Shown here: positions 36,250-37,940 of the stretch, in pieces
How the letters are laid out: each line of letters opens with the position of its first letter
How positions within the stretch are numbered: position 1 is the stretch's first letter
DNA from: a virus
Virus record (IMG/VR): IMGVR_UViG_3300049561_000024
Location: 1 to 42,917 of that record
DNA: 42,917 nt
Direction: 5' to 3' (one strand)
Notes under the pieces: generated by a model
Databases searched by the model: none
Told to the model about the DNA's origin: nothing
The model's input: only the letters and a program-made list of their open reading frames with translations
Position numbers and translations under genes: made by a program

Positions 36250-36337
36250 AAACGCTTGGTTGGAAGTTCTACGGTTGACCTATTTTAGGTCGTACGCTCA
36301 CCAAACTTGACGTACTCCAGAAGCCAACCAAGCGTTT
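36250..36337 (-). ncRNA. Candidate structured RNA with 14-bp stem and two inner hairpins
   Basis: AAACGCTTGGTTGG at 36250-36263 is the exact inverse of 36324-36337. A four-pair extension (36267-36270 with 36319-36322) continues it. Inside are two hairpins: 36277-36291 (GACCTA/TAGGTC with a three-base loop) and 36292-36315 (GTACG/CGTAC with a 14-base loop), giving a three-way junction. The stem begins one base after the discriminator base of the upstream tRNA-like gene and ends 13 bases before a ribosome site. It may protect or mature the tRNA 3' end or control the next gene. No known family is recognised. Confidence 0.65.
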
Positions 36338-36338
36338 G

Positions 36339-36536
36339 TGGGCCGAACAGGATTTGAACCTGTAATAGCTTAGGCAGAACCAATTCACACGTCCGTCAAC
36401 TATGAAATGGTTCTTTTGGGAACTTCGATGCTCGTGTGGTGCATACAATGATCCACCGTCGTAGTGTAATGCATCAGCCTAGAGTCCGTTTGTTGCTATA
36501 TGCCTTCCTTGCGTCTACCAATTCCGCCATCGACCC
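36339..36536 (-). tRNA. Interrupted Leu-type tRNA-like gene (second copy)
   Basis: On the minus strand GGGTCGA (36536-36530) pairs with TCGGCCC ending at 36340, followed by discriminator A. The 5' half has T8-G9 and a D-arm (GCGGAATTGGTAGACGC) of class II tRNA-Leu type. The 3' half has the T-arm ACAGG-TTCAAAT-CCTGT. Between them are about 140 bases where an anticodon arm and variable arm would need about 31. An AGGCA/TGCCT stem and a 13-pair hairpin (36366-36414 region) lie in the insert. No anticodon can be assigned. CCA is not encoded. Intron or tmRNA-like insert are the alternatives. Confidence 0.6.
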
Positions 36537-36623: not shown

Positions 36624-36697
36624 TCCGGGTGGCAGGATTTGAACCTGCGACATCTTGGTCCCAAACCAAGCGCGCTACCATGCTGCGCTACACCCGG
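36624..36697 (-). tRNA. tRNA-Pro (anticodon TGG)
   Basis: A full cloverleaf on the minus strand: acceptor CCGGGTG/CACCCGG with discriminator A, T8-A9, D-arm GCGC-AGCATGGTA-GCGC, anticodon arm CTTGG-TTTGGGA-CCAAG with TGG, five-base variable loop, T-arm GCAGG-TTCAAAT-CCTGC. CCA is not encoded (TCG follows). The 87 bases between this and the next tRNA-like gene contain a small TCTC/GAGA hairpin and one ACGGAC word. Confidence 0.95.
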
Positions 36698-36704
36698 ATA
36701 TTAG

Positions 36705-36911
36705 GGGGCTCGCCAGGATTTGAACCTGGAATGGACTTAGGCATTCATCAATCAAATTTCGCCAAATTTGTATCAGAATTTATGGATGCTATTTTGTTCC
36801 CAGTGTGGTTTCAACAACGCCGCTTGCGATTTCGACCATGAAGCACATCTAACATTTTGCATTGTCCGTCCAACCCATTAGCCTGCGTCTTACCAATTCC
36901 GCCACGAACCC
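36705..36911 (-). tRNA. Interrupted Leu-type tRNA-like gene (first copy)
   Basis: GGGTTCG (36911-36905) pairs with CGAGCCC (36712-36706) with one G-U pair. The D-arm region GCGGAATTGGTAAGACGC and T-arm CCAGG-TTCAAAT-CCTGG are clear. About 145 bases separate them. A hairpin with seven pairs and a GGCG loop (CAAATTT/AAATTTG) lies before the shared word GCCTAAG. The base after the acceptor is C, not the usual A. It starts nine bases after the tmRNA end, so both come from one transcript. No anticodon assigned. Confidence 0.58.
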
Positions 36912-37264: not shown

Positions 37265-37282
37265 TTTATTTTCAAAGAGCTG
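37265..37282 (-). promoter_or_regulatory. boxA-like antitermination motif, copy 2
   Basis: The minus strand reads CAGCTCTTTGAAAATAAA, matching boxA of rRNA leaders (TGTTCTTTGAAAA or TGCTCTTTAACA), the NusB-NusE binding site. It lies 31 bases before the tmRNA 5' end. Confidence 0.6.
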
Positions 37283-37440
37283 AATAAAACCATAAAATTA
37301 GGCAACCATTTAAAAATCTTTCAAATCTAAAATCGGTTTTAACTTTCGTGCAGCCTACTGGTGATTCGCGTATGGCTTGTACAACCATCGTTACGTTTTA
37401 GGATATACATTGAATGGCTGCCTAATTTCATGGCTTTATT
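37283..37440 (-). other. 28-bp helix between two boxA copies
   Basis: 37283-37310 and 37413-37440 are inverted repeats of 28 bases with three differences. In the minus-strand RNA all three become G-U pairs, whereas in the plus strand they would be A-C mismatches, so structure is kept on the minus-strand RNA. The enclosed 102 bases hold a small hairpin (ATGGTT/AGCCAT) and a CTAAAACG/CGATTTTAG pairing. It resembles RNase III stems of pre-rRNA leaders. Confidence 0.65.
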
Positions 37441-37452
37441 TTCAAAGAGCTG
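37435..37452 (-). promoter_or_regulatory. boxA-like antitermination motif, copy 1
   Basis: Identical over 18 bases to 37265-37282, at a distance of 170 bases, and directly before the 28-bp helix on the minus strand. Together the two copies frame the leader of the RNA cluster. Confidence 0.6.
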
Positions 37453-37659: not shown

Positions 37660-37940
37660 ACCACACCCCGCCGTTACGAGACGCAACCATACGTGGCCTC
37701 TGCTTAACATCGCCGTACCTATCTCCGCATTGCCGCCACATTACTATGACAAACTTTACTGTGCTTTACCATCGCCGTGCCCATCTCCGCATTGCCATCG
37801 CCTTACTTTACACTACACATCGCATCACCGTGTCCAACCCCGCATTGCCTTTGCCAAAACGCACCAGGCTGCACTTAACCATCGCGCTACCATACACCAC
37901 TTCGCCATACTGAACTTTGCTGCGCTTAACCATCGCTAAA
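37660..37940. repeat. Degenerate CNNNR pentamer array
   Basis: On the plus strand the sequence is built of five- and six-base words beginning with C and ending with A or G. From 37874 to 37940 there are 13 in a row (for example CCATA-CACCA-CTTCG, then CTGAA-CTTTG-CTGCG). Larger units of about 51-61 bp begin with CTTWACCATCGC-like words near 37703, 37764, 37817, 37874 and 37925. On the minus strand the words read YNNNG. It has biased composition unlike coding DNA around it and starts exactly at the stop of the upstream gene. Confidence 0.75.

Follow-up and report, generated by a model that had tools for sequence, protein, structure and literature searches.

Two RNAs encoded on the - strand of the window, that is, the whole virus record of 42,917 bases that we analyzed, are very probably non-decoding tRNA-like RNAs, each of which, as read from its sequence, possesses the body of a Leu-type tRNA and lacks the anticodon arm. 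In both of these, referred to here as copy 1 (36705..36911, 207 nt) and copy 2 (36339..36536, 198 nt), we found a fully paired acceptor stem, a Leu-type D-arm, a T-arm, and a U at position 48, together with an insert from which no single deletion restores an anticodon arm; and neither copy contains the anticodon arm with a 7-nt loop that characterizes a canonical tRNA-Leu. Elements of the same build are numerous in phage contigs, so that the evidence set out below comes from the window and from that larger family.

The structural genes of the record (portal, terminase, tape measure) are of the siphophage type, and the two copies are part of a tight RNA operon on the - strand, with the order tmRNA, copy 1, tRNA-Pro, copy 2. 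The phage tmRNA (36918..37234, - strand; 118 bits with Rfam RF00023, and also called by ARAGORN) lies upstream of copy 1 at a distance of 6 nt, and 7 nt after copy 1 comes the tRNA-Pro (UGG) (36624..36697, - strand; ARAGORN and Rfam). ARAGORN reported that tRNA and the tmRNA in the window and nothing else, and Rfam at gathering scores returned the same two genes. The homologues of the window phage (one at 39%; two by terminase) were without such elements. Directly after copy 2, at 36250-36337, the arms of a 14-nt inverted repeat match perfectly around a loop of 60 nt, and this repeat is possibly the end of the operon. Upstream of the tmRNA, at 37265-37452, two 31-nt inverted arms, 87% complementary and 96 nt apart, are flanked by a direct repeat of 18 nt, TTTATTTTCAAAGAGCTG, present in two identical copies; and beside the operon, at 37704-37936, there are degenerate tandem-like repeats of 33-42 nt of the CATCGCCGTGCCCATCTCCGCATTGCC type.

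The original prediction had delimited copy 1 exactly, and had described its acceptor, D-arm, and T-arm as intact, with the acceptor halves pairing across an insert, which description agrees with our own reading: the 5' strand GGGTTCG (36905..36911) pairs with the 3' strand CGAGCCC (36706-36712) at 7/7 positions, one of these being a G-U, and both arms are complete. The Leu-type D-arm is GGCGGAATTGGTAAGACGC (36885..36903) and the T-arm CCAGGTTCAAATCCTGG (36713..36729), while the segment 36705..36712 comprises the acceptor 3' strand plus a discriminator C, all on the - strand. Between the arms an insert of 155 nt (36730..36884, - strand), whose last base is U48, stands where an ordinary tRNA has its anticodon and variable arms. 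Copy 2 likewise has a 7/7 acceptor, a D-arm, and a T-arm, along with an insert of 147 nt (36364..36510, - strand), U48, and a discriminator A; the C of copy 1 is thus a departure from the ordinary Leu tRNA. The distance from D-stem to T-stem is therefore 155 nt in copy 1 and 147 nt in copy 2, versus about 31 in ordinary tRNA-Leu (three examples). Because the regions around the 5' ends (36 nt, 81% identical) and the 3' ends (32 nt, 78%) are similar, the two copies are probably duplicates, as far as can be judged from that identity. The inserts themselves align weakly (local p 0.44, global p 0.005, mononucleotide shuffles), and in the scans of phage contigs we found no relatives of them. The insert hairpins, formerly thought to be strong, are nothing unusual, since the inner loop folded no better than mononucleotide shuffles in copy 1 (z +0.4) and only slightly better in copy 2 (z -1.1).

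To place the two copies in a wider context, we scanned IMG/VR with a pattern made up of the D-arm GGCGGAATTGGTA and the T-loop GGTTCRARTCC, with fixed distance ranges between them. The conservation of D-arm and T-loop is accordingly a matter of construction, whereas acceptor pairing was not asked for by the pattern. With 50-80 nt between the arms, the acceptor was paired at 7/7 positions in 104 of the 120 unique non-ARAGORN matches and at 6/7 in another 7, among the matches listed; and when distinct stems were considered, again among the matches listed, 56/68 were paired 7/7, versus 5.3% with the 3' strands re-dealt. The range of 80-107 nt gave 73/82 paired 7/7 and, for distinct stems, 51/60 versus 2.8%, among the matches listed; the counts for both of these ranges are lower bounds, three of the pattern scans (Leu or class I bodies) having yielded at least 120 matches each. 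At 137-167 nt, where most matches were ordinary neighbouring tRNAs, 13/19 unique non-ARAGORN matches were paired 7/7 versus 7%. In GTDB the 50-80 pattern returned 53 rows among 84,980 species, with 20/34 unique non-ARAGORN matches paired 7/7; these matches include named strains of Bacteroides, Sphingobacterium, Riemerella, and Christiangramia, and the one GTDB locus that we read closely (L262) is a prophage-like replication region. A relaxed search for the same build found 146 non-ARAGORN matches when 2.45 Mb of fetched loci were scanned, and none once these loci had been shuffled, so that chance is excluded.

From the 141 distinct Leu-body elements we retained 134 after dropping eight loci (L186, L239, L245, L246, L257, L258, L266, L278), which were likely ordinary tRNAs with small duplications or contained N. 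Position 48, which the search pattern did not set, was U in 132/134 of these elements, and in 73/73 of those from the 80-107 scan among the matches listed. A scan with a class I D-arm, meant as a control, proved to contain a second large group besides the Leu bodies, 68/85 unique non-ARAGORN matches being paired 7/7 among the matches listed; and in the class I elements with G15, position 48 was C in 66/68, also among the matches listed. The pair 15:48, the Levitt pair, thus changes together between the bodies, being A15:U48 in the Leu and G15:C48 in the class I elements. The search pattern did not impose this switch, which is an argument for a tRNA fold in both sets. Judged by this pattern of conservation, the core of the tRNA body is kept by selection across the Leu-body family. 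Such maintenance is pertinent to the proposal that we are dealing with decaying tRNA pseudogenes or assembly chimeras, an explanation with which the loss of the anticodon, the hypervariable middle, and the lack of a known function would all agree; decay, nevertheless, would not maintain the 7/7 stems (56/68 distinct stems among the matches listed) or U48, and the shuffled loci gave no matches at all, so that we hold this origin to be very improbable. The discriminator is A in 108/134 Leu-body elements. Because bacterial LeuRS is known not to read the anticodon, leucine charging of the A73 members is possible; for copy 1, in view of its C73, charging by LeuRS is doubtful.

A tRNA was present at 500 nt or less from 37/134 elements, a distance within which 9% of random positions have one; of 50 nearest tRNAs, 48 were on the strand of the element. 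In whole phage records such RNAs are clustered among ordinary tRNAs: one phage (G013) has at least seven of them with the acceptor AGTCAGG beside a large ordinary tRNA set, and four others (G002, G009, G003, G005) contain several; the number of different acceptors in a phage is mostly one or two. The genes that recur beside the elements are generic phage genes, almost all of them on the same strand, and none of them is a constant partner. When Rfam 15 was run on 20 loci, the tRNA model was the only match at gathering scores, and some elements scored 30-41 bits end to end as tRNA. Three elements used as queries gave no match in a phage isolate collection, and a scaffold query returned no record with 80% coverage. 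The titles and abstract openings of the open-access literature contained no description of such RNAs, and a prior description elsewhere is possible. The Leu-body elements are, then, a large and uncatalogued group of virus RNAs that have the look of a tRNA without codon reading.

Other tRNA-like oddities were observed in the same material. A non-decoding class I family (L325, L334, L335, L342, L343, L348, L354, L361, L365, L373, L414, L428) has a conserved domain GGYRAAGGRCC ... AAGCC, in which, when the 12 sequences are compared, each of the five base pairs of the inserted helix shows changes on both sides, the whole-structure covariation being 0.545 versus 0.150 when shuffled; one of its members (L354) has a tmRNA close by, as in the window. 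In a prophage-like region of Bacteroides xylanisolvens XB1A (L293, 9879-10617) four tRNA-like RNAs stand in a row over about 740 nt, none of them called by ARAGORN, and two of the four are of ordinary length with loops of about 4-6 nt instead of a 7-nt anticodon loop; an element of 98 nt in this strain occupies NC_021017 1,004,356-1,004,453. Two elements are nested, one with a tRNA-like arm within the insert (L016, 3502-3655), the other with a small tRNA-like structure within the D-loop (L282, 2498-2730). Three further tRNA-like genes of 151-168 nt (L128, L211, L214), with the acceptor TGTAAGG or TGTAGGG, resemble tRNAs with a very long variable arm.

That the anticodon arm of copy 1 could not be read within a Leu-type body was already part of the original prediction and is borne out by the deletion analysis, which at the same time speaks against the compact intron there put forward. 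If the insert were an intron (group I or a new mini-intron), splicing would yield a normal tRNA-Leu, and insert-bearing phage tRNAs do in fact exist. We made every single deletion in each insert and asked whether what remained had a variable arm and a Leu anticodon with U33 and a stem of 5 bp, a procedure that recovered 11/11 ordinary tRNA-Leu carrying random 60-nt insertions. One deletion restored 24/68 class I inserts among the matches listed (1-3 in shuffles) and 4 of the 207 inserts in the Leu set (shuffles 0-1), about 3 of the 207 being counted as real insert-bearing tRNAs; in the two window copies, however, no single deletion restored the arm with any of the rules applied, not even when every anticodon or a stem of 4 bp was accepted. 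The intron-aware mode of ARAGORN 'found' introns in 114/134 real inserts and in 102-119 of the shuffled ones, with Leu calls in 15/114 versus 11-18, and designated the window copies as Ala and Thr, not Leu. The covariance models for group I and group II introns in Rfam 15, the check originally suggested, matched nothing on the window even at E<=10. Family members of 87-100 nt, moreover, leave little room for an anticodon arm, a variable arm, and an intron. On the strength of the deletion test with its positive controls and of the comparison with shuffled inserts we rejected the intron, and an interrupted tRNA-Leu is an improbable explanation of the window copies.

Of the insert-bearing tRNAs themselves, a set of class I phage tRNAs (L310, L319, L326, L341, L344, L346, L347, L362, L371, L372, L400, L422), comprising Lys UUU, Ile UAU, Arg UCU/CCU, Gly UCC, and Asn GUU, contains an insert of 40-49 nt after position 28 or 29, within the 5' strand of the anticodon stem, whose removal leaves a perfect stem and loop. 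Nine of these inserts, when aligned, have an invariant CAGC after a hairpin; the insert may be an intron of very small size or else an additional arm with a protective role, and we know of no described counterpart. In addition, the 128-nt element near 5428 of L081 is, by intron-aware ARAGORN, a tRNA-Leu (UAA) whose anticodon is followed by an insert of 38 nt.

The Leu-body inserts share little with one another, 153 inserts giving 13 groups of two or more; their comparison shows a long, hypervariable, and fast-changing segment that has replaced both the anticodon arm and the variable arm. As to a common architecture, we considered an H-type pseudoknot in which helix A opens near the D-arm and helix B closes beside the T-stem, and compared it with dinucleotide shuffles in all 141 elements. 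The mean z was -0.73 (s.e. 0.10, n=141), with p<=0.05 in 39/141, and the alternatives were weaker in the same 141 (two hairpins in a row, mean z -0.41; nested helices, -0.11); helix B ended 2 nt before the T-stem in 32% versus 12% in shuffles. The L256/L262 type is an example of the members with a pseudoknot. Within the 13 groups, cells changed on both sides stayed paired in 19/22 instances versus 17/42 with the partners slid by 1 or 2, the cells not being independent. For inserts of up to 85 nt the mean z of the pseudoknot was -0.80, while in the 16 inserts longer than 85 nt, both window copies among them, no fold beat the shuffles (pseudoknot mean z -0.12, s.e. 0.23). The pseudoknots in the window are for that reason proposals only. 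In copy 1 (- strand), a helix A of AGGC (36881..36884) with GCCT (36739-36742) and a helix B of TGGAC (36868..36872) with GTCCA (36732-36736), both picked out by eye and not significant alone, could together form a pseudoknot; in copy 2 (- strand), the corresponding candidates, likewise not significant alone, are AGGCA (36501-36505) with TGCCT (36372-36376) and ATAGC (36495-36499) with GCTAT (36365-36369). Both window copies also hold TGCCTAAG near a pseudoknot-like arrangement, and an HDV-like ribozyme was considered for that reason and dropped, other members of the family being without TGCCTAAG; a scan for that motif found 8 contigs, none of the window's type.

The alternative that copy 1 was a tRNA-like RNA built on the tmRNA plan stood in its first half, since the RNA is indeed tRNA-like (and non-decoding), and found no support in the second. 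A tmRNA-like RNA with a short message of its own would account for the tRNA end, the long insert, and the adjoining tmRNA, features in which the copies do resemble a tmRNA and its operon neighbour; the D-arm, however, is a genuine tRNA D-arm, the tmRNA models recognize the neighbouring true tmRNA and nothing else, with no meaningful score on either copy (permuted tmRNA 19.6 bits, cut-off 47), and the inserts of the relatives are short and unrelated. The tmRNA plan is therefore unsupported, and we rejected this identity as having next to no likelihood. With tRNA-Leu, the elements share the acceptor, the D-arm, the T-arm, A15:U48, and mostly the discriminator A, but differ in being without the anticodon arm, in having an insert, whose length ranges from 36 to 161 nt among the elements analyzed, and, in copy 1, in the discriminator C.

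The closest known RNAs to the window copies are RNAC and RNAD of phage T4, of 139 and 119 nt, which lie in a tRNA cluster at 6 and 1 nt from their neighbours. At its end RNAC has the T-arm of a tRNA, along with an acceptor in which pairing is partial (5/7 by eye). The likeness, one of build, is that of phage RNAs packed among tRNA genes; unlike the window copies, the T4 RNAs, two in one phage, have no Leu-type D-arm and an imperfect acceptor. These species 1 and 2 stable RNAs are referred to as being of unknown role in passages of two papers (PMC9697503, PMC3014915). The 'tRNA-Undet' genes of the isolated Bacteroidota phage pT24 of Tenacibaculum, annotated as undetermined, are likewise tRNA bodies without a normal anticodon loop, although they differ from the window copies in having class I bodies of 79 nt and an extended hairpin. 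Engineered tRNA scaffolds, for their part, carry a foreign RNA in the anticodon-arm place of a tRNA body; in comparison, the window RNAs would be natural and phage-borne.

The full explanation that we favor, as a reasonably probable one, is that of a non-decoding tRNA-like RNA in which the tRNA body is the scaffold for a variable effector domain. RNase P and the enzymes that process tRNA 3' ends would release the RNA from the tmRNA/tRNA transcript; the RNA would receive CCA and would fold into the tRNA L-shape, in which the insert would form a domain of its own at the site of the anticodon arm. The body would then serve for processing and stability, tRNA-binding proteins would perhaps recognize it, and the variable domain would act on a host or phage partner. 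The most plausible role of this domain is that of a decoy or a regulator of tRNA-binding or tRNA-attacking host factors, although this is a guess, and less likely than not to be right. In the main narrower form of the scaffold explanation, the RNA would be a decoy that absorbs such factors (anticodon nucleases, toxins, LeuRS) during infection, which would suit a tRNA body kept without decoding, inserts as hypervariable as in an arms race, and several copies per phage; the target is nevertheless not known, many inserts have no anticodon-like loop, and no gene, of whatever kind, was a constant neighbour, and we consider the decoy unlikely. Neither a partner gene among the neighbour genes nor a complementary target in comparisons of the inserts with their own loci was found. 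A guide or antisense RNA was rejected, there being no extra match of the inserts to their own locus (2 matches outside the element, in a count that left out the window's own two inserts).

These genes, skipped by ARAGORN and without an Rfam 15 family of their own, are yet common in phage contigs. They provide material for comparison in the old question of the role of T4 RNAC and RNAD, and they offer a case on which the uses of the tRNA body outside decoding can be studied, for which the named host Bacteroides xylanisolvens XB1A, with its prophage-like region, makes laboratory tests feasible. As a tentative generalization, to which we assign somewhat less than an even chance, the tRNA body may serve phages as a general-purpose and exchangeable carrier of structured RNA domains, and the resulting RNAs would constitute a new non-coding class acting on the host in infection; if so, Leu and class I bodies alike would be such carriers, and a genome would have several of them, which would share their acceptor within the phage and each display a different domain.
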